From contig CACGRD010000007.1 in the NCBI GenBank assembly GCA_902575375.1, positions 1 through 35,000 of the forward strand: a stretch of 35,000 nt of DNA. Reading direction: 5' to 3'. Source of the DNA: an uncultured Alphaproteobacteria bacterium. Lineage in GTDB: Bacteria > Pseudomonadota > Alphaproteobacteria > HIMB59 > GCA-002718135. Positions 8,611 through 34,020 of the stretch are shown here, piece after piece. The notes below the pieces were generated by a model that saw only the letters and a program-made list of their open reading frames with translations, was not told the DNA's origin and made no database searches. Positions within the stretch are counted from its first letter, which is position 1; each line of letters starts with the position of its first letter. The position numbers were made by a program, and so were the translations under genes.

Positions 8611-9663
8611 CTATTTAAAATGCTTACTTAATTTTAAACCTTGATTTTGGTAATTTGATCTAATATCTTTTCCGTATACAATATTACTATTTTTGTTCAA
8701 CTTTTCATATTTAATTCTAGCTATAGTTTGACCATCTTCTAATAAAAAAGGCACTTCATTTGTTTTTACTTCCAAAACAGCATATGATCCTCTACCTAGA
8801 CCAAAACCAGGATCAAAAAAACCTGCATAATGTGCTCTGAAGTCTCCAATGCCCGTATCGTATGGTATCATTTCACCAGCTAAATTTGATGGTATCACAA
8901 CCTTCTCTTTTGATCTCAAAATATAAAACTTGTTTTTTTCAATTACTAATTTTCTATTTTTTTTTCTAATTACATCCCAAAAATCATTTATTTTGTGAAA
9001 TTTAATTTTAGAGAAATTTAGAACAGGAGTATGTTTTTTGGCTACGTAAGCAACTATTTTTGATCCAACTAGATCAACTGATAACTTTAATCCGTTATCA
9101 ATTTTAAAATTGTCTCTAGTTTGATTTGAAATTTTTTTATTCAGGTTAATTAATTGTTTATCAGTCAAATAATTATGATTTTTATTTACAAGTCTTAATT
9201 GATTTAAAGAATTATTTTTTCTAAAAGATACGTCAAATGATCTTGATGTTATTTCTAAAAATATCTCACCTTTATAATTTTTAGGAATTTTTTCGTATTC
9301 TTCTCCATAATCAACAAGTGTTCTACAAAAAATATCTAATCTGCCAGTACTACTTTTAGGGTTGCAGTGACCAAATATATTATTTTTTAAGTTAAGACTT
9401 TCATTAAGTTTAACAATGTAAGTCTTGTTTTTTTTAAATATAAATTCTCTACTTAGATTAATTTTTTTAATAGCTAAATCTTTTAGTTTATCTCTAACTT
9501 TTGAATTATAGGATAAAAAACTATACTTAATTTCATAGCATTCATCACTTAATGACAAGTCAATGCTTGATGGTTGAATTTGGTTATTTCTAATATTTTC
9601 AGTTATTAAGAAATTTTTATTAATTAAATTTATGTAATCTTGATATACTAGAGATCCGTTCAT
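8611..9663 (-). CDS. dcd: 2'-Deoxycytidine 5'-triphosphate deaminase, long two-domain form
   Basis: The 350-residue protein is about twice the length of ordinary Dcd (about 190) and matches the alphaproteobacterial long form. The first dUTPase-like half shows QPSSIDLSLSDECYEI and HCNPKSSTGRLDIFCRTLVD; the second shows VIPSNLAGEMIPYDTGIGDF and RAHYAGFFDPGFGLG, ending AVLEVKTNEVPFLLEDGQTI. The likely reaction is dCTP to dUTP, feeding dTMP synthesis. The duplicated trimerisation/jelly-roll fold in one chain is inferred from length and the two sets of motifs. The start ATG overlaps the M48 protease stop by one base. Confidence 0.88.
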   Translation of the reverse strand: MNGSLVYQDYINLINKNFLITENIRNNQIQPSSIDLSLSDECYEIKYSFLSYNSKVRDKLKDLAIKKINLSREFIFKKNKTYIVKLNESLNLKNNIFGHCNPKSSTGRLDIFCRTLVDYGEEYEKIPKNYKGEIFLEITSRSFDVSFRKNNSLNQLRLVNKNHNYLTDKQLINLNKKISNQTRDNFKIDNGLKLSVDLVGSKIVAYVAKKHTPVLNFSKIKFHKINDFWDVIRKKNRKLVIEKNKFYILRSKEKVVIPSNLAGEMIPYDTGIGDFRAHYAGFFDPGFGLGRGSYAVLEVKTNEVPFLLEDGQTIARIKYEKLNKNSNIVYGKDIRSNYQNQGLKLSKHFK

Positions 9664-10964
9664 TAATTTACATTCTGGATTATATTAATAAGTTTTAATA
9701 AATCACTATCTTTAGTACTTTTAAAATTTTTTATTTCAATATCATAAACATTTTTTTCAATATTATTAATTGATAAAAGAAAATTAAAGAATTGTAACCA
9801 TTCTTTTTTATTTAATTTTTCAGCTAGTTCAAAATATTTTAGGATAACATTTTTATTATTATAAAATTTATATAAAAGATTCTTATTACTTTGAAAAAGT
9901 TTCTCTCTATCACTATTAGATAAATTTTTTATTTCTATATTTTCAAATATTCTAATTTGAGCATAATAATTTAAAGGATATTTTTCTAAATTTTTTTTAT
10001 AAAATTTTTTAGCTTCATTAGTATATCCATAAGAAAATAATATATCTGCTTTAGTTTCTAGTAGAAAATTATTGTTATTCTTTTTAATTATTTCATTTAA
10101 ATTCTGTAGAGACATTTTTAGATTTCCACTTTTAGCTAATTTAATTGATTCTGCATAAGCTTTAAAAGGTTCATTTAATTCACTTAACCCTTCCTCATTA
10201 TCACTATAACCAACAAATTTTGCTCTAATGTAGTTAAATCTTTGATTGTAACTTTCATTAAAATTTTTTTCTTTATTTTTTTCAAAGTTTTTTATTAATA
10301 AAATCCTATCCTCAAAATATGGATGTGTACTAACTCTTTGTTTATCTTTTGAAAAACCTTTATTTAATAATTGTTGTTCAATTGTTTCTAGTAATCTTTG
10401 AATAGATTTAGAATTTGTTTTTAGTAAATTTAGTGTTTTTAATGCATATAAATCTGCTTCCATTTCTTGATCTTTACTAAAAACAATGTATTGATTTGAT
10501 AAAGCGGCTGAAGTCAGAATACTGCCTTGTAAAAATTGAGGGTTTTGAGTTAATGCTGATCCAGCTATTACAGACAAAAGCCCATAGGTATTATATTTTT
10601 TAGTATTTTCTATTGTTTTTTTTCTAAGTGCAATATGGTTGAGATCTATATGACCAATTTCATGAGCTAATACTGACAATAAGGCAACATAATCTGAGCA
10701 ATGAATAATTAAGCCAGAATTTATATGTATTACATTATTAATATCTACATAAGCATTTATTTCATTACTGTTATTTAATTTAAAATTTATTTTTTTATTA
10801 ATTTTATTTACTTCAGTAATATCTTCAATAATTTCTTTAACAAATTCTTCCGTTTCATAATCTAGAATTTGTGAACTATAACTAGTGTTTGAAGAAAAAA
10901 TAAAAAATAAGAAATAAATTGATATTTTTTTAAGACCATCATCCAGTTTTTTCTTCATCTTCAT
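9663..10964 (-). CDS. M48 family metalloprotease with C-terminal helical repeats (BepA-like)
   Basis: The 433-residue protein has a signal-peptide-like N-terminus (KKISIYFLFFIFSS, then NTSYSS) and the zinc protease motif HEIGH at residues 101-105 (LLSVLAHEIGHIDLNH), with the third-ligand region QEMEADLYAL near residue 167. The C-terminal third looks like TPR helices (ETKADILFSYGYTNEAKKFY, NPLNYYAQIRI-like). This layout matches the periplasmic BepA/YfgC group, which degrades or assists outer-membrane protein assembly. It begins inside the last 26 bp of rne; an alternative ATG lies two codons downstream. Substrate is not predictable. Confidence 0.88.
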   Translation of the reverse strand: MKMKKKLDDGLKKISIYFLFFIFSSNTSYSSQILDYETEEFVKEIIEDITEVNKINKKINFKLNNSNEINAYVDINNVIHINSGLIIHCSDYVALLSVLAHEIGHIDLNHIALRKKTIENTKKYNTYGLLSVIAGSALTQNPQFLQGSILTSAALSNQYIVFSKDQEMEADLYALKTLNLLKTNSKSIQRLLETIEQQLLNKGFSKDKQRVSTHPYFEDRILLIKNFEKNKEKNFNESYNQRFNYIRAKFVGYSDNEEGLSELNEPFKAYAESIKLAKSGNLKMSLQNLNEIIKKNNNNFLLETKADILFSYGYTNEAKKFYKKNLEKYPLNYYAQIRIFENIEIKNLSNSDREKLFQSNKNLLYKFYNNKNVILKYFELAEKLNKKEWLQFFNFLLSINNIEKNVYDIEIKNFKSTKDSDLLKLINIIQNVN

Positions 10965-24908: not shown

Positions 24909-25892
24909 ATGTTTATCAAAGACTATTCAAAAATTAAACTTGATCTTTATAAATTAAAAAAATTTGATGAATTAAAAAAAACATATAGAGGCTTTAATAT
25001 TAATTTAAAAAAATATTTTAATAAAAATAAACCAATAAAAATCTATTTTAAAAATATAAATTGTCCACTGTGTAAATCAAAAAATAACAGTAAAATTTTT
25101 ATTATTGATAATTTTACTTACTGTGAATGTTTTAAATGTAAAAGTATTTTTAATAACCCCATTCTAAAAGATAAATTTTACAAAGAAATTTATAAAGTTG
25201 GTGCATACAAAAATTATGTAAAAAATTTAACAGAGAAAGGCAAAAAAATAAGAGCTAATTTAACCGAAAGAAGAAAATATAATCAAATTAGTAGTTATTT
25301 TAAAAAAAGAAAAAATTTGAAACTTCTAGATATAGGATGTGGTACTGGAACACTAATGAGTCTGTTTGTTAAAAATAATTGGGAAACCTTAGGTATTGAG
25401 CCATCCAAATTCTCATACTTGATTGCTAAAAGTAAAAATTTAAATGTAACAAATATTTTTTTCGAGGAATTCAATTATAAAAAAAAATATGATGTTATAA
25501 CTCTATTTGGAGTCCTCGAACATGTAACTAATCCATATGAAATATTATCTAAAGCCACAAAATATTTAAAAAAAGGTGGCATTATAGTCTTTGAAGTACC
25601 TTCTGCTGATAGTTTAATTATGAATTATTTAAAATCTGGACATAAATTAAATCAAATTTATAGATTTATCGAAGCTGCAAGACACTTAACTTTTTTCTCT
25701 GAAAATGGCGTTGAAATAATTTGTAAAAAATTAAATTTGAAAATAATTTTTAGAGAAACTAATGGCCTTGATATTCAAACTATCTTTAATGATAGAAAAA
25801 ATAACAATATTAAAGAAATTTTAAATGTTCAGGATTTAATAAATAACATGAACATAGGGGATCATTATAGATTTTTTTTAACTAAGAATTAA
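24909..25892 (+). CDS. Class I SAM-dependent methyltransferase with N-terminal zinc ribbon
   Basis: The 327-residue protein has a cysteine cluster (Cys52, Cys55, Cys72, Cys74, Cys77: CPLC then CECFKC) like the zinc-binding head of sugar C-methyltransferases, followed by the Rossmann SAM motif LLDIGCGTGTL (139-149), the acidic loop GIEPS and FGVLEHVTNPYEIL. It ends with the KGGIIVFEVPSADSL strand and a C-terminal domain. Such proteins often modify sugars for surface glycans; the substrate is unknown. It lies 11 bp after sufA and could be read from the suf transcript, but it belongs in content to the accessory region that starts here. The 3' end overlaps the convergent cytidylyltransferase by 11 bp. 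Confidence 0.8.
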   Translation: MFIKDYSKIKLDLYKLKKFDELKKTYRGFNINLKKYFNKNKPIKIYFKNINCPLCKSKNNSKIFIIDNFTYCECFKCKSIFNNPILKDKFYKEIYKVGAYKNYVKNLTEKGKKIRANLTERRKYNQISSYFKKRKNLKLLDIGCGTGTLMSLFVKNNWETLGIEPSKFSYLIAKSKNLNVTNIFFEEFNYKKKYDVITLFGVLEHVTNPYEILSKATKYLKKGGIIVFEVPSADSLIMNYLKSGHKLNQIYRFIEAARHLTFFSENGVEIICKKLNLKIIFRETNGLDIQTIFNDRKNNNIKEILNVQDLINNMNIGDHYRFFLTKN

Positions 25893-26547
25893 ATTTCTTT
25901 TTAGAATAAATAAATTCACAAAATTTAAAATCAATCATATCATCAATATCCCATGAGCTGAGTTTATCTTTTATAAAAAAATATGGTCTATTTCCAACAC
26001 ATGAGCCCCATTTAATCATTTGCTCTCTAGTAAGTAAATTAATTACAAAACTTAAAGAATAAAGTGGATTTAAGTCTTGTGATCTAGGCCATGGAGAAGG
26101 TTTAAAATTAATAGGTTTATTTTTATAAAAAAAATTTTCTTTGATCTCATAAGCGCTTAAAAGACAGTCATATTTCATGTGGTCTAGATTTTTATAACAA
26201 GCAATGGCCTCTTCATAAAATTTGGTTTCTGCAAGTGGATTTGTTACATTGATCCAAGCAATAACATCTGTATTTATCTCCTTTGCCAAGTGCTTATAAA
26301 CTTCACTCATTGGAACTTGACTAGTTGAATAATAGTTATTTCTTTTATGTACTTCAAAGTTTCTTGATTTAGCATATTTCAAAATATCTTCATTTTCAGA
26401 TGAAATGACTATTTTATTAAGATTTGATACATTTTCTAAATGATTTAATTTAAGTTCCAAAAGATTTGTATCGTGAAATTTTCTAGTATTTTTATTTTCT
26501 ACTCTTTCAGATTTACCTTTTACAGGCAAAATTGCTGTTATTTTCAT
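25882..26547 (-). CDS. Acylneuraminate cytidylyltransferase family (CMP-sugar synthetase, NeuA-like)
   Basis: The 221-residue protein starts ITAILPVKGKSERVENKNTR, the nucleotide-binding loop of CMP-sugar synthetases (usual form R-x-G-S-x-R-x-x-x-K-N), and continues with IVISSENEDILKYAKSRNF, then YYSTSQVPMSEVYKHLA and WINVTNPLAETKFYEEAI. It probably activates a nonulosonic acid or similar sugar with CTP for capsule or LPS. No sialic acid synthase gene is visible nearby, so the sugar is unknown. It is a single gene, read toward the methyltransferase, with the tRNA pair upstream. Confidence 0.82.
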   Translation of the reverse strand: MKITAILPVKGKSERVENKNTRKFHDTNLLELKLNHLENVSNLNKIVISSENEDILKYAKSRNFEVHKRNNYYSTSQVPMSEVYKHLAKEINTDVIAWINVTNPLAETKFYEEAIACYKNLDHMKYDCLLSAYEIKENFFYKNKPINFKPSPWPRSQDLNPLYSLSFVINLLTREQMIKWGSCVGNRPYFFIKDKLSSWDIDDMIDFKFCEFIYSKKKFNS

Positions 26548-26782: not shown

Positions 26783-26859
<77 letters not shown>

Positions 26860-26915
26860 AAAATTTACTAAATATTTTTTATTTCTTTTAAAAAAAAAAT
26901 TGATAATTTATTTAA

Positions 26916-27998
26916 TTAGATTTGATTTAGTTTTTCAAATAGTAAAAACTTTGTCTTTTTATAATTAATTCCATAATTATCAAAATTAGAACTGGGTATA
27001 GATTGTCGCTTGCAAATCTTTTTTTTAAGTTCTTCAAACGTACTTATTACAATTTTGTCATCTTCAAGCTCTTTATTTAGGAAATTATTATTATTGTGTG
27101 GATTTGTGAAATATACAGTTTTATTTAACGGGATCATTTCAATACCTAATGTGGAACAATATGTTATTAATAGATCAGCCTTTAAAGCAAAATAATATGT
27201 ATTTAAATGTTGTGGTAAGTAAATAATATTTGAATTACAAGATATACTAATCTCATTTTTGTCTTTAATCCAAGTGTTGTGATGTTTAATAAATATACTT
27301 AAATCATTATCATTGCTTAATTTTTTTAGCCATCTAATAGTTTCATAATACCCCTCCCAATTATTTCGTATGTTATTAGTCACATTGCTGCCTATAAATA
27401 GAATGTCTATGGATGCTCCTACAGATCTAAAAGTTTCTTCTTCTTTTGAAAAGTTTGAATTATCAAATAAATAATAATTTAGGTTATTAGAACCTATTGG
27501 CACTACCTCATTTATTTTTGCGCCTAAATCTTTTATCGAACTAAAACTGTTGAAACCCATTGAAAAAAAAATGTCACAATTAAAAAAAAGTGCTTGAGTA
27601 TCATAAGGAATTAAATGAGTTTGAAGATAGCAATTTCTACCTTTGTATTTTTTTTTGAAAAGATAATTTTTTAAAATATTTGTTCTGCCTAAAATTCTTT
27701 CTTGGAAAATTATTCTTCCTTTTACTTTAGAATATAATGATGAGAAATAAAGAAAATCATTTAAAAATTTGTTATATAGATTAAAAAGATTTAACTTAGA
27801 CTTAAAAGAATATTTAATAAGATAAAATATTTCTATAAAATCAAATAGAGTGATATTTTTTTTTATAATTTCTCTCGAATAACCAATAAAATCTTCTTGC
27901 ACAATTATATTTACTTTTTTATTTTCATAATTTTTGAATTTTTTTCTTAAAATAAAAACTTTATCTTTTTGCTTAGTGTCAGAAAATAGACTTATCAT
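26916..27998 (-). CDS. GT-B-like surface glycan glycosyltransferase, C-terminal main part
   Basis: From the ATG at 27998 the product is 360 residues, but the frame is open upstream to 28061 with no other start codon, reading KKKIETKIIIDDIKSERELD before the Met. Visible features fit a two-domain GT-B fold: NCYLQTHLIPYDTQALFFN, a FFSMGFNSFSSIKDLG segment, VGASIDILFIGSN at the start of the second domain, IFIKHHNTWIKD (the K-x-H type nucleotide-binding strand) and LLITYCSTLGIEMIPLNK, as in CDP-glycerol/capsule-type transferases. I cannot name the family firmly. The upstream open part and the neighbouring 101-codon frame suggest that this is the C-terminal portion of one larger gene (see the A12 tract). 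Confidence 0.6.
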   Translation of the reverse strand: MISLFSDTKQKDKVFILRKKFKNYENKKVNIIVQEDFIGYSREIIKKNITLFDFIEIFYLIKYSFKSKLNLFNLYNKFLNDFLYFSSLYSKVKGRIIFQERILGRTNILKNYLFKKKYKGRNCYLQTHLIPYDTQALFFNCDIFFSMGFNSFSSIKDLGAKINEVVPIGSNNLNYYLFDNSNFSKEEETFRSVGASIDILFIGSNVTNNIRNNWEGYYETIRWLKKLSNDNDLSIFIKHHNTWIKDKNEISISCNSNIIYLPQHLNTYYFALKADLLITYCSTLGIEMIPLNKTVYFTNPHNNNNFLNKELEDDKIVISTFEELKKKICKRQSIPSSNFDNYGINYKKTKFLLFEKLNQI

Positions 27999-28047
27999 AC
28001 GATCTAATTCTCGCTCACTTTTTATATCATCAATAATTATTTTTGTT

Positions 28048-28353
28048 TCAATTTTTTTTTTTTACCTTTATACTTTTAATAAAAAAAAGCGTTTTAAACC
28101 CTAAAAAATATATCAGACTTAAAATTAATTTTTCATTTCGATATTTTGATATATTTATATTGTATTCACTTGGTTTTAGATTTGTTAAAGATAATGCATA
28201 TCTTTTTTTAAAATATTGCTTTATAATATTTTGCTCAACAGAATATTTTTTTTCTATGTAGTTAAAAAAATTTTTAAGTTTTTCACTTTCTATACCTTTA
28301 TTAATTTCTTTTTTGATATTAAATAAATTATTTTTAATTTTTAAATATGACAT
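28048..28353 (-). CDS. Probable N-terminal part of the split glycosyltransferase
   Basis: A 101-codon frame starting 5 bp after the GMC oxidoreductase gene. It is basic and helical, with one hydrophobic stretch near the end (LILSLIYFLGFKTLFFI) and a lysine-rich end (KSIKVKKKN) where it runs into a 12-A tract and stops at TGA. Removing one A would join it directly to the downstream frame as ...IKVKKKIETKIIIDD..., giving a single protein of about 478 residues. It resembles no independent family I know. Short independent hypothetical protein is the alternative. Confidence 0.5.
   Translation of the reverse strand: MSYLKIKNNLFNIKKEINKGIESEKLKNFFNYIEKKYSVEQNIIKQYFKKRYALSLTNLKPSEYNINISKYRNEKLILSLIYFLGFKTLFFIKSIKVKKKN
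28052..28063 (-). other. Poly(A) tract of 12 at a frame break
   Basis: On the minus strand twelve consecutive A residues lie between GGT and TTGAAAC. It is the longest homopolymer I noticed in the window, and sits exactly where one reading frame ends and the next opens. Runs of this size promote RNA-polymerase and ribosome slippage and are also prone to sequencing error. Confidence 0.9.
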
Positions 28354-28358
28354 TTATT

Positions 28359-29855
28359 TTAAACAATATTAATTAAATGATCAGCCAATCTTAAAGATAA
28401 TGCTGAAACAGTTAATGTTGGATTAACGGAGGATGATGATGGAAATACACAACTTCCGGATACATATACATTTTGGATATTGTGCAATTTAAGATTTTCA
28501 TCTACCACACCTTCTTCACCCTTTTTAGACATTTTGGTAAGACCAATATGATGATTAATGGAGTCTTCTTCTAGAAAAACTGAATTATTTTTTAATTTTT
28601 CAGATAGTTCAAAAACACCTAATTTTGATAAAATAACTTGTCTCGCAAAATATCTATTTGCTATCTGAATAGTTTTTATTTCTTTTTTTGAAATATTATC
28701 CCAAAAAACTTCTAAAATTGGTTTATTGAAAATATCTTTTTCTGAAGTTGATTGTTTCAGATAATTGTTTTCTAAAAATTCTTGCTCAATACCAATGCTT
28801 ACATCCCATTCTTTTGGTATATTTATCTCATTTTGCAAATTGCACTTAATGTTTTCAAACACATTTACATAATTTAAATTATTTATAATTTCATTAAATT
28901 GCATATTTTTTAGTTTATTTTTTATATTAACTGGTTTTAGAGAAAAACCATGCCCTAAAATTTTTTCTTTATTTATAAATTCCTGTTTTAATTCAGTATT
29001 AAAGTATTTTAATTTTTTATTAATTTTCTTATTATTTTTTTTACTTAAGCATTTTGGATTTAAATATAATTTGCCAATATTTGAAAAGCCAGGATGACTC
29101 ATCAATCCTTTTCCAAAACTATTAGCATTTATATATTTTCTAGTTCGAGAATTCATTAGAAACCTACAATTTTCTAGTGCGCCCATACACAAAACAAATT
29201 TTTTAGCAGAAATGTATAATTTGTTTTTATTAATTGAAAAAACTTCAAGTTTTTCAGCATTCCCAAAAGGATTAATTTTAATATCAACAGCAGTTGCATT
29301 TGTAATTAAATTAATATTTTTTGAATTAATGATTTCATTACCAAACTTATTTGTTAAATCTCTATTTTTTTCAGATGCTTGTATGAAACTTTTTGCATTA
29401 AAAAAAGAGTCATTTTTATATAGCTCCTTAAGATTTTGATATAAAAAATATTTTTCATTTGAGTTTTCTTCAAAATTAAAATTACTATTCAGGCCAAACA
29501 AATTATATGCATCTATATAATAAGGAATAAAATCTGCATAATTAATTGGCCAATTATTTCTTTCAAAATCATTTAGAGAAAAGTGTCTACAAACTCCTGC
29601 CCATAATTTACCAGCACCTCCAAATGTTCTTAATCTTGAACTTTGTACATCAAGAAATCTTGGCCCAATACTCTTACCTATATTTAGAAAATCATGATCA
29701 CCAGTGTCTGATAAGTTTCCAGATTCCAGTAAAATTATTTTTTTGTTTATTTTTAATAATTTTGAAACAATACTTAATCCGGCTGGCCCAGTTCCTACAA
29801 CACAAATATCACAGTTTAACAACTGGGTAGAGATTTCATCTAAGTTAGAATGCAT
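28359..29855 (-). CDS. GMC family FAD oxidoreductase
   Basis: The 498-residue flavoprotein has the N-terminal FAD dinucleotide motif (ICVVGTGPAGLSIVSKL, about 17-33) with the acidic end IILLESG, the GMC loop RTFGGAGKLWAGVCRHF, and the C-terminal catalytic region SINHHIGLTKM followed by NVYVSGSCVFPSSSSVNPTL, carrying the usual His and Asn. Members oxidise sugars or alcohols, and many pair with a small Tat-exported subunit. There is no signal peptide of its own. The start shares one base with the stop of the small upstream gene (TAATG), supporting a two-subunit enzyme. The substrate may be a surface-glycan sugar, given the neighbours; that is inference. Confidence 0.85.
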   Translation of the reverse strand: MHSNLDEISTQLLNCDICVVGTGPAGLSIVSKLLKINKKIILLESGNLSDTGDHDFLNIGKSIGPRFLDVQSSRLRTFGGAGKLWAGVCRHFSLNDFERNNWPINYADFIPYYIDAYNLFGLNSNFNFEENSNEKYFLYQNLKELYKNDSFFNAKSFIQASEKNRDLTNKFGNEIINSKNINLITNATAVDIKINPFGNAEKLEVFSINKNKLYISAKKFVLCMGALENCRFLMNSRTRKYINANSFGKGLMSHPGFSNIGKLYLNPKCLSKKNNKKINKKLKYFNTELKQEFINKEKILGHGFSLKPVNIKNKLKNMQFNEIINNLNYVNVFENIKCNLQNEINIPKEWDVSIGIEQEFLENNYLKQSTSEKDIFNKPILEVFWDNISKKEIKTIQIANRYFARQVILSKLGVFELSEKLKNNSVFLEEDSINHHIGLTKMSKKGEEGVVDENLKLHNIQNVYVSGSCVFPSSSSVNPTLTVSALSLRLADHLINIV

Positions 29856-30190
29856 TATGTATTAAAGCTATACAAATTATACTCTGTACGAGAAATAAAT
29901 TTATTATCACACAACTTAATATTGTCTTCTTGATAATCTTTAATGATTTTTTTTGAAATGATATTTTTAAGTTCTCTTTCAGTCTTAAATTTATATGCCA
30001 TTACCTCAGTGTAAAAATTTTTTTGTTGCGACTTATCTAACTTTACAGAGTTAAAATTATTTTGAAAATTATTTAATACACCTAAAAAAATTTTTATTTT
30101 ATTTTCATCTATACTTTTTTCAAATAAATGGGAAAAAATTAATAATGAAGGAATAGAGCATATTAGTTTTAAAAGATTTCTTCTATCCAT
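29855..30190 (-). CDS. Small Tat-signal subunit, gluconate 2-dehydrogenase subunit 3-like
   Basis: The 111-residue protein begins MDRRNLLKLICSIPSLLIF, a twin-arginine-type signal followed by a hydrophobic stretch. The rest is a small helical domain (KIFLGVLNNFQNNFNS ... ELKNIISKKIIKDYQ). This architecture and the one-base overlap with the GMC gene match the gamma subunits of FAD-dependent sugar dehydrogenases, which help the catalytic subunit fold and be exported as a hitchhiker. Sequence similarity alone is weak; the call rests mainly on signal, length and context. The 152-bp gap upstream holds a 12-bp perfect palindrome at 30269-30280 (CTTTCTAGAAAG) and T runs. Confidence 0.62.
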   Translation of the reverse strand: MDRRNLLKLICSIPSLLIFSHLFEKSIDENKIKIFLGVLNNFQNNFNSVKLDKSQQKNFYTEVMAYKFKTERELKNIISKKIIKDYQEDNIKLCDNKFISRTEYNLYSFNT

Positions 30191-30342
30191 TTTTAAATTA
30201 ATATTAAATAACTACTTGTAACATATGCAGCAATTTAAAAAAATTAATATGGGGATGATATAATATTTCTTTCTAGAAAGCTATTTTTAAGTTTTTTTTT
30301 ATAATAATAGTTATATGAATATTTTCAAAAGATTCTATAAGA

Positions 30343-32076
30343 TTATGTGATATTTTTTTTGATCGTATTTATCCATTCATTTATATAATTTTCATTACTT
30401 CTTGCATTTTTTTTTAAAAAACTATTTTTTATTCTTTGAGTATTATCATTTAACCACCACTTATTTATTGAATCTATATTGTTATTATTTACAAAATCTG
30501 ATAATTTATTGAATGAGTCGTATAAAATATTTACTTCACGCAAGTTATTGTATTCTGCCTTTCCTGATGTATTAAGTCTCCAAAATTTTTCCTCATTAAG
30601 TAATATTGAAGGTATGTTTAAAGTAAGTAATTCAAAAAAAAGTGTAGATTCATATGAAAAAATAAATAGTGAGTTTTTAGAAACTAATTTTTTTAAACCC
30701 TCAGTTTTTAAATAAGAAAATTTATTTATTCCCAAGTTTTTGTAAAATGTTTTTAGTTCCCAAGTTTTGGAGTCCTCTCTCAATCTTATAGTAGTATTAT
30801 CTAATAACTTTTTATTAATATTACAAATAAATTTCTTTTGGATATTTAAACTTTCTAAAAAATTTGTCGATGTTGGTGCAGCTGAGATAGAGGCAGAATA
30901 TTTATTGCCACTATAAACAACGAAACAAATTCTAGTTTCATTTTTATTATATTTATAATCATTTTTATTTTTTTTTAATTCTGACAATTTAGATGATGAT
31001 AAAATGTTTTTTGTCCAGCCCCATGAAAAAAAAGTATCAGATATAATTTCGGTAAACATGCCTGGGTGATTAAATAGAGAGTTTGAATGGTGAGCACCGT
31101 GCACTGAAACACAAAATTTTTTATTTAATAATGATTGTTCAGCTATCCAAATTTTAAAAAGTTCATTAGAAAAATAACCCGTAGAAGTAAGTATAAATTT
31201 CGGACTTTTTGGAAAAAAACTTAAAGCTCTTTTTTTATTATTCTTAAAAGATTCTAAATATGCAATTGGTAAATTTTTAATTAATAATCTGCAAATTAAT
31301 CTTACAACTTCAGTATCGTTTTTTAACTCATGATCATATTTATTATTACGAAGTGCTGAATTAATTTTTGATTTATTTGTTATTTCTCTTATGTAATATT
31401 GAAATGGAAATTTTTTTAACTTAGTCTGTATTTCACATAATTTTAAAAATTTTAAATCAGTTTCTATTAAACAAATATCTCTATATTTTTCAGGTATGAT
31501 TTTATTTGCATAATAAATTAAATATTTTATGACTTTTTTTGAAAGTTTTTCTTTTTTTCTTTTATATAAATTTTGATTAATTAATTTTTGATCTGAATAT
31601 TTGTAATTTATAATTTCTAGATCCTTAATTATTTCAGAATAAATATATAAATTCCAGTCATCTCTGGAGATCATATCTTCAAAATCAACAAAATCTAATG
31701 GTATCCAATCATTGACGTTATAGTGAGGTATATATGTAACTAAATTTTTTTTATTTTTTAATGAATTTAAATTTTCATATCTTTCGAAAATGACGCTAAC
31801 AAAAAATAAAAGCCATGGTCCAATAATTTTTTGCCAGTAATCAGTATCTTTATCAAAATTGTGGATATCATTTAATTTATTTGATATTAATTTAAGTGTT
31901 TTTTCATAAATTGAAAAAATTAAATAAGAGTCATTTGTAAATTTATCTAAGTTTGACCAGTGATAATTGTGAATTTTTTTTTTATTATGTTCATTTATTA
32001 AATCAAAACACCAAGATCCTAAATGCAAATCAGCACTTATTTTTTTGTCTTTGATGTTAGTAAGCTGTAAAATCAT
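30343..32076 (-). CDS. LIC12162 family transferase (surface sugar)
   Basis: The 577-residue protein matches the LIC12162 family pattern (TIGR04331) from memory: LGSWCFDLINEH near the start, NYHWSNLDKFTND, LNDIHNFDKDTDYWQKIIGP and WLLFFVSVIFERYENL. Further on are KFCVSVHGAHHSNSLFNHPG, FFSWGWTK and the C-terminal IFSYESTLFFELLTLNIPSI. The family is found in lipopolysaccharide and capsule loci (named from Leptospira) and is thought to transfer sugars; the exact reaction is not known. The length is full. It is the first gene of the minus-strand block facing away from the rRNA operon, 152 bp ahead of the small subunit gene. Confidence 0.75.
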   Translation of the reverse strand: MILQLTNIKDKKISADLHLGSWCFDLINEHNKKKIHNYHWSNLDKFTNDSYLIFSIYEKTLKLISNKLNDIHNFDKDTDYWQKIIGPWLLFFVSVIFERYENLNSLKNKKNLVTYIPHYNVNDWIPLDFVDFEDMISRDDWNLYIYSEIIKDLEIINYKYSDQKLINQNLYKRKKEKLSKKVIKYLIYYANKIIPEKYRDICLIETDLKFLKLCEIQTKLKKFPFQYYIREITNKSKINSALRNNKYDHELKNDTEVVRLICRLLIKNLPIAYLESFKNNKKRALSFFPKSPKFILTSTGYFSNELFKIWIAEQSLLNKKFCVSVHGAHHSNSLFNHPGMFTEIISDTFFSWGWTKNILSSSKLSELKKNKNDYKYNKNETRICFVVYSGNKYSASISAAPTSTNFLESLNIQKKFICNINKKLLDNTTIRLREDSKTWELKTFYKNLGINKFSYLKTEGLKKLVSKNSLFIFSYESTLFFELLTLNIPSILLNEEKFWRLNTSGKAEYNNLREVNILYDSFNKLSDFVNNNNIDSINKWWLNDNTQRIKNSFLKKNARSNENYINEWINTIKKNIT

Positions 32077-32269
32077 TTCTTGTTTAAGCCTCTAATTTTT
32101 AAATTGTTTAAATAGCCAAAATATTAGGTTTTTTTTTAAAATCATTATATAAAGAAGTTAATATTAAGTTTCTCAAGATTTTGTAATGATTCTCAATAAT
32201 TTTTAATTTTGTTAAATTAACTTTTAATTTATCCCCAGAAAATAGCGATTTTTTTTTAAAAATAATGGT
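32077..32269. other. AT-rich intergenic spacer before the rRNA promoter
   Basis: No gene or RNA is visible. It must hold the promoter of the LIC12162 gene on the minus strand, but AT content makes any single -10 call unsafe. A partial Fur-box-like match sits at about 32184-32198 (see rejected items). Confidence 0.5.
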
Positions 32270-32298
32270 TTGACAAGGAATTTTTATACTATTATAGG
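32270..32298 (+). promoter_or_regulatory. rRNA operon promoter
   Basis: A perfect TTGACA (-35, 32270-32275) is followed 17 bases later by TATAGG (32293-32298), matching four of six -10 positions. It is the only perfect -35 I saw upstream of 16S, and transcription would start near 32305, just before a 6-bp hairpin (CTTTTC/GAAAAG, 32307-32323). Confidence 0.7.
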
Positions 32299-32330
32299 CT
32301 CATACTCTTTTCTTTAAGAAAAGAACAACC

Positions 32331-32374
32331 CTCTATTTTTATTTAAAATTTAGAGTTTTGTATGCTCTTTAAAA
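32331..32374 (+). promoter_or_regulatory. rRNA antitermination elements: boxB-like hairpin and boxA
   Basis: TGCTCTTTAAAA at 32363-32374 matches the boxA consensus (TGCTCTTTAACA in E. coli), the NusB-NusE binding site that makes RNA polymerase resistant to Rho. Just upstream CTCTA (32331-32335) pairs with TAGAG (32351-32355), a boxB-like hairpin in the expected order. Confidence 0.75.
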
Positions 32375-32388
32375 TGTTAATAAGATAA

Positions 32389-32414
32389 TAAAGAGATACG
32401 TAGACAACAATTCG
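32389..32414 (+). ncRNA. 16S precursor processing stem, 5' strand
   Basis: This stretch pairs antiparallel with 34053-34078 just after 16S: 26 positions with one C-C mismatch, two G-U pairs and otherwise Watson-Crick pairs. It brackets 16S and is the expected RNase III cleavage stem. Confidence 0.85.
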
Positions 32415-32433
32415 TAAATTAATTTTAACGAAT

Positions 32434-32525
32434 GTTAAGTTGGAATACGTATCAACAAATATTTTTTGTTTATACAAGAAGTATTCCGCTTTAACGGACG
32501 TTCCGTAAATTTTGACTTCGGTCAA
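32434..32525 (+). ncRNA. Structured 16S leader hairpins
   Basis: A long hairpin spans 32434-32495: GGAATAC (32442-32448) pairs with GTATTCC (32481-32487), extended inward by GTAT/ATAC and AACAAA/TTTGTT and outward by imperfect pairs. A second short hairpin (ACGGA/TCCGT) follows, then a UUCG tetraloop hairpin TTGAC-TTCG-GTCAA (32512-32525) directly before the 16S 5' end. These probably guide rRNA processing and assembly. Confidence 0.7.
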
Positions 32526-32532
32526 GTTTATT

Positions 32533-34020
<1,488 letters not shown>

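Follow-up and report, generated by a model that had tools for sequence, protein, structure and literature searches.

Hitchhiker-type export of GMC flavoproteins is a known arrangement. In the FAD glucose dehydrogenase of Burkholderia cepacia (BcGDH), the small gamma subunit is described as a Tat hitchhiker partner that the GMC catalytic alpha subunit requires for export (gamma-alpha complex, 6a2u and 8grj), and alpha binds a 3Fe-4S cluster through Cys212, Cys218 and Cys222 (PMC6719666). The 35,000-nucleotide stretch of DNA analyzed here (the window) likewise encodes a GMC oxidoreductase beside a small protein with a twin-arginine signal; what is new is the small-subunit family, which has no name in Pfam or NCBIfam. 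We read the two genes as a Tat export pair whose GMC enzyme would oxidize a sugar outside the cytoplasm, most likely the cell's own surface glycan, and we put the probability of this reading at roughly 60%. Binding of the two proteins to each other and their joint export are quite probable parts of it, and surface glycan as the substrate is a possibility at somewhat short of even odds.

Both genes lie on the minus strand, with the small gene (111 aa; 29855..30190) ahead of the GMC gene (498 aa; 28359..29855). As the preliminary description had it, they share a TAATG overlap, the small-gene stop codon TAA occupying 29857-29855 and the GMC start codon ATG 29855-29853. The small protein begins with MDRRNLLKLICSIPSLLIF, which contains a twin-arginine motif (DRRNLLK) and a hydrophobic stretch. 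The GMC protein lacks a signal peptide, since its FAD motif GTGPAG (GxGxxG) begins at residue 21 and leaves no room for one; these features, too, had been called correctly. The order of transcription runs from a LIC12162-family transferase (577 aa; 30343..32076, minus strand; TIGR04331, E 3.4e-83) through the 111-aa protein and the GMC to a 101-aa ORF (28048..28353, minus strand) and a 360-aa ORF (26916..27998, minus strand). The LIC12162 gene is separated from the small gene by 152 bp, and its membership of the operon is therefore less certain; the gap between the GMC gene and the next ORF (at 28353) is 5 bp. A run of 12 T at 28052-28063 is the site of the break between the 101-aa ORF, probably the N-terminal piece of a frame-broken gene, and the 360-aa ORF. 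Two of the 161 other genomes in the order contain a relative of the 360-aa part, which in one of them is 27% identical to part of an uninterrupted 491-aa frame; the 101-aa part found no match at the N-terminus of that relative, so the split is likely but short of proven. Neither part has a significant match in Pfam or NCBIfam and the 360-aa ORF is transferase-like by place only, which leaves a glycosyltransferase identity unproven. The earlier statement that the pair runs straight into a split glycosyltransferase thus holds for the spacing, while the split is only likely and the glycosyltransferase has no family match. The break at the 12-T run can be read as slippage-type phase variation, as decay or as an assembly error.

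The larger product is a GMC oxidoreductase: it matches PF05199 (GMC_oxred_C) at E 8e-15 (56 bits against a cut-off of 24.6), the N-domain model PF00732 scores 13.9 bits, under its cut-off of 23, and the catalytic His (NHHIG) and Asn (NPTLT) are kept at the aligned columns. Among the paired GMCs (described below), the His is present in 61 of 62, with one gap, and the Asn in 51 of 62, being absent in eleven. The AlphaFold model, built with 66 sequences, had a pTM of 0.88 and a pLDDT of 85. The best folds in Foldseek were fructose dehydrogenase, FAD glucose dehydrogenase, and C-glycoside and pyranose oxidases; VIA-align also placed fructose dehydrogenase first, with choline oxidases about level with pyranose oxidases in Z. 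The top fold match was the large subunit of Gluconobacter japonicus fructose dehydrogenase (7w2j, 8jej; Foldseek E 1.5e-27; VIA-align Z 37.8 over 443-448 residues, rmsd 4.0-4.4). That enzyme is a three-subunit membrane complex with haem c; in contrast, no multihaem ORF was found in the window or near the 49 paired loci among the best 80 of 577, and no ORF of at least 60 aa in the window contains even one CxxCH. The best PDB sequence matches were the FAD-GDH and FDH large subunits, BcGDH being the best solved sequence relative (fold match Z 33). By fold and by nearest solved relatives, the enzyme thus resembles hitchhiker-exported sugar dehydrogenases. Pyranose oxidase and C-glycoside oxidase (9fl2, 8qve) resemble it in fold, but identity as a pyranose oxidase was rejected, the score of 45.4 bits lying far below the TIGR02462 equivalog cut-off of 544.9. 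The window GMC is divergent, with 22-29% identity to 65 relatives, and is the sole branch flagged as long (1.76) in a tree of 100 rows, from which the second GMC of locus L054 was omitted; a single-protein query of genomic and viral contigs returned no close relatives. The His of an NHW/GHW motif, which is Leu in the window GMC, is kept by 60 of the 62 paired GMCs and by 10 of the 37 unpaired ones; in pyranose oxidase a similar motif holds FAD.

The small-protein family was traced through gene neighbors, by way of a Rhodobacteraceae locus and a Skermanella plasmid, each with a small Tat protein beside a GMC. With a profile of these two proteins and that of the window, matches at E 0.01 came from 12 of 385 genomes in the class, the window's own included; of 13 matches outside the window, 12 adjoin a GMC of one subfamily and one (L050) is an orphan without a GMC. 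A scan with the GMC alignment gave 577 confirmed loci, and the best 80 of these, selected by score and hence not a random sample, were used for the survey. The pairing in the window proved recurrent: the GMC has a same-strand small gene next to it in 49 of these best 80 of 577 loci, or in 47 of 78 after dropping two loci whose contigs had supplied profile seeds. The 49 loci hold 50 small genes (E 4.1e-12 to 4.5e-37), 34 upstream and 16 downstream of the GMC; 48 lie within 100 bp of it and the others at 142 and 512 bp, and the small-protein profile at E 0.1 found no match away from a GMC in these loci. In 32 of the 34 upstream-type pairs, the small gene ends at most 41 bp from the first conserved GMC codon. 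The paired loci come from six phyla (Pseudomonadota, Bacteroidota, Cyanobacteriota, Gemmatimonadota, Deinococcota, and Myxococcota). No small gene was seen in 31 of the 80 GMC loci, some of which reach contig ends early, and L026 was kept out of both the paired and the single group. Locus L115 (6587-11569) carries three tandem GMC genes of the subfamily and no small gene. Within the order, a GMC of the window kind occurs in 2 of 162 genomes, its own included. Among the matches listed in a search of open-licence papers, we found no description of this small-protein/GMC pair.

Membership of the window protein in this family was examined with a leave-one-out profile of 50 relatives, the window protein being excluded. 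Among the 373 window ORFs it scored best (E 2.8e-6, against 0.67 for the runner-up), so its membership is not due to chance, and with the signal region removed the mature part alone still ranked first (E 3.4e-5). The protein is divergent, with 14% identity to the first row of the small-protein alignment, which nowhere reaches the conservation that a scan requires, and its C-terminal motif KDYQEDNIKLCDNKFISRTEYNLYSF stands against the family's DF..G.TV.VDGW.LSRTEARLCAL, the GW being replaced by NK. A twin-arginine pattern ([RK]R-x-hydrophobic) is present in 45 of the 50 relatives from the best 80 of 577 loci. A lipobox-like pattern follows the hydrophobic stretch in 8 of the 50 (L077, L093, L108, L116, L119, L120, L122, and L127), as it would in Tat lipoproteins. 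Pfam and NCBIfam searches over 51 family members revealed no domain that recurs consistently: 4 of the 51, the window protein not among them, match Tat-signal models, 2 of 51 match an eIF-5a model (best E 2e-4), and the remaining models match one member each. The weak KOW-like Pfam matches among the 51 (eIF-5a; EFP_N, 0.008; KOW2_Spt5, 0.09) may reflect the C-terminal hairpin DF..G.TV.VDGW of the family. Against PDB sequences the family profile found nothing significant, the best match being a Tat signal peptide at E 0.064. The AlphaFold model of the window protein had a pLDDT of 84 and a pTM of 0.66; with Foldseek and VIA-align it matched no solved fold, BcGDH gamma included, which is weak evidence and does not imply a new fold. 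Judged from sequence, the small protein is a member of a separate, widespread family.

This family was compared with the small subunits already described. The preliminary description expected the small protein to resemble dehydrogenase gamma subunits, but it is not a member of the known gamma-subunit family: none of 51 family members match Gluconate_2-dh3 (PF13618) at E 0.1, hhalign of the family against 11 PF13618 sequences gave a probability of about 0.5%, over the RR stretch only (half-split controls, >99%), and Gluconate_2-dh3 has 0 matches in the window's own genome, which is 66% complete. The small subunit of FAD-SLDH (PF12318) was likewise rejected, with 0 of 51 members at E 0.1, though this model matches no genome at all, controls included, so that its absence from genomes carries no weight. 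In the narrow sense, then, the small protein is unlike dehydrogenase gamma subunits; the hitchhiker idea survives, because what replaces the gamma subunit is an analogous partner. Gluconate_2-dh3 pairs resemble the present ones in that a same-strand GMC lies no more than 0.9 kb away in all 10 of the 10 loci examined and, by eye, in that RR stands near the N-terminus in 8 of 11 sequences seen. They differ in that 6 of 10 of their GMCs carry the 3Fe-4S pattern C-x5-C-x3-C, which is absent from the window GMC and found in 0 of 100 members of its subfamily, and in that glycan markers occur in 0 of 10 of their loci. BcGDH differs in that its alpha subunit has the 3Fe-4S cysteines, and no profile or fold relation was detected between the small subunits.

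We propose that the GMC would fold and take up FAD in the cytoplasm and that the folded enzyme would bind the small protein, whose Tat signal would guide the two across the Tat translocon. Once in the periplasm, the GMC would oxidize a sugar hydroxyl, most likely of the cell's own surface glycan made in the island, and the electrons would pass to an acceptor encoded elsewhere than nearby. By analogy with the described complexes, hitchhiker export of the GMC, which had been suggested from the window alone, is well supported; export by the adjacent Tat protein is the best reading because pairing and RR motif recur in six phyla and because the host genome carries TatC and TatA/B-type genes.

The genes lie in a block between a tRNA (26783-26856) and a 16S rRNA gene (at 32533), in an interval of 5676 bp (26857..32532). 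We fetched 12 congeners, seven of which show the second tRNA and the 16S (the 16S match being partial in three), and in 7 of these 7, with both ends visible, the interval measures 351-361 bp; it follows that the block was inserted at a variable site next to the rRNA genes. Of the other five, four have no visible second tRNA and one (L247) has no 16S within 8.1 kb after the tRNA, and may carry an insert at this site too. The literature describes, for SAR11, a hypervariable island of surface-glycan genes next to the rRNA genes (PMC4053759) and, for HIMB59, glycotype islands (PMC10734472).

To examine the glycan context, we trained marker profiles on the loci and controls to which they were then applied; the 40 control regions came from 9 genomes of the class and the GMC loci from many phyla. 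On this footing, among the best 80 of 577 loci, 8 of the 30 pairs outside Bacteroidota had at least two glycan markers around them against 1 of 40 controls (Fisher p 0.004), and 16 of 30 had at least one against 9 of 40 (p 0.012). By contrast, paired loci in or near Bacteroidota (18 Bacteroidota loci and L082, an uncultured bacterium placed among them in the tree) had at least two markers in 0 of 19 and one in 1 of 19, so the pair is not in itself dedicated to glycan synthesis. Among the unpaired GMC loci of the best 80 of 577, 10 of 31 had at least two markers; the unpaired form is thus no less frequent in glycan loci, and the glycan link does not depend on export. Pfam families were tallied for neighbor proteins hand-picked mostly by size, 111 from 172 called ORFs outside Bacteroidota and 79 from 139 within, with ORFs <900 nt in GC-rich loci kept only if they had a homolog in another locus, which may favor families common to the set. 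The commonest families in the 111 were glycosyltransferases, epimerases, and polysaccharide synthesis (Glycos_transf_1 in 9, Glycos_transf_2 in 7). For the controls, 111 of 120 ORFs were tallied, representing 37 of the 40 regions; the 25 families in that listing include no glycosyltransferase, although one with at most 2 members could be hidden, and the 25 listed for the 79 Bacteroidota neighbors include none either. Of the 12 loci found via the small protein, two of which (L042 and L044) overlap L054 and L055, 5 had at least one glycan marker and 3 at least two. In an annotated example, Rhodobacteraceae S2214, the pair lies with glycosyltransferase, export and O-antigen ligase genes, and in a Pelagibius sp. 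it also lies in a glycan cluster. Another GMC from the same order (L213, G155; 9057-10628) has no small partner; it is part of a sugar-nucleotide cluster, next to a gene resembling asparagine synthase, so here too the link does without export. In glycan-type loci, genes of this asparagine-synthase-like kind are found repeatedly close to the pair (L106, L051, L087, L071, and L127).

The GMC subfamily, paired or unpaired, therefore visits glycan clusters in several phyla, and the paired form also occurs outside them. The glycan link drawn earlier is upheld in part, by the enrichment around pairs outside Bacteroidota, and weakened by its absence in Bacteroidota and its presence around unpaired GMCs; in the window it is plausible without being pair-specific. 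The LIC12162 gene, whose co-occurrence had been named as something to survey, is not tied to the pair: it was found in 12 of 162 genomes of the order at E 1e-3, its own included (8 over the cut-off), against 2 of 162 for the GMC, and gave no BLAST match in the pool of 80 GMC loci (best 80 of 577) and 40 controls. We accordingly rejected it as a partner.

The main rival to surface-sugar oxidation in the window is a periplasmic respiratory dehydrogenase that acts on sugars or alcohols from outside or on sugars released from glycans, the island position being a by-product of turnover. The nearest solved relatives of the GMC are indeed sugar dehydrogenases, the Bacteroidota pairs have no glycan context, and the window site is insertion-prone, so that unrelated genes could land together there. 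The absence of the 3Fe-4S cysteine pattern (0 of 100, against 6 of 10 GMCs beside Gluconate_2-dh3) and the glycan enrichment around pairs outside Bacteroidota argue the other way, and we regard the respiratory role as unlikely. No ORF with at least two CxxCH was found within 5 kb in the 49 paired loci (best 80 of 577), although such a gene could lie elsewhere, and this absence weighs little because multihaem genes are rare beside Gluconate_2-dh3 pairs too (1 of 10).

Alternatively, the small protein could be a membrane-anchored assembly or inhibitor partner, its RR-hydrophobic N-terminus serving as the anchor, with the GMC modifying lipid-linked precursors on the cytoplasmic face; the window protein shows no obvious cleavage site by eye, and 31 of the best 80 of 577 GMC loci lack the small gene and yet are also found in glycan loci. 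The twin-arginine pattern in 45 of 50 members from these loci, however, exceeds what an anchor needs, and the lipobox-like pattern in 8 of 50 would place the mature part outside, which makes the anchor improbable. The pair could also be island cargo, laterally gained and drifting toward decay in a streamlined genome, as might be suggested by the long branch of the GMC, the motif losses in both proteins, the frame-broken gene adjoining them and the rarity of this kind of GMC in the order (2 of 162). This is more doubtful still: both ORFs are open and overlapping, the FAD motif and the catalytic His and Asn are intact, and AlphaFold modeled both proteins with fair confidence (pLDDT 84 and 85; pTM 0.66 and 0.88 for the small protein and the GMC).

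The pairing gives a function class and a candidate partner to a widespread small-protein family that lacks a name in Pfam and NCBIfam. It also suggests that GMC enzymes exported by a hitchhiker route extend beyond the Fe-S dehydrogenase complexes of glucose sensors. We tentatively speculate that this family is a second, independent invention of the hitchhiker, which in glycan clusters would export GMC oxidases that edit finished or lipid-linked sugars extracytoplasmically and would be exchanged from strain to strain via hypervariable islands. If the glycan reading is true, oxidation would be a late, extracytoplasmic step of surface polysaccharide synthesis, and would join the known routes of bacterial surface-sugar diversification, in SAR11-like plankton; a bearing of the surface-glycan islands of such plankton on phage interactions has been proposed (PMC4053759).

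A second insert lies at 24909-26547, between sufA and the first tRNA, a gap that is <20 bp in 6 of the 12 congeners fetched. It holds a methyltransferase gene and a CTP-sugar cytidylyltransferase-like gene of the PseF/KdsB type (25882..26547, minus strand; PF02348, 4.4e-11; TIGR03584, 2e-14, below cut-off), and a 57% identical copy of the latter is present in another family of the same order (L215).
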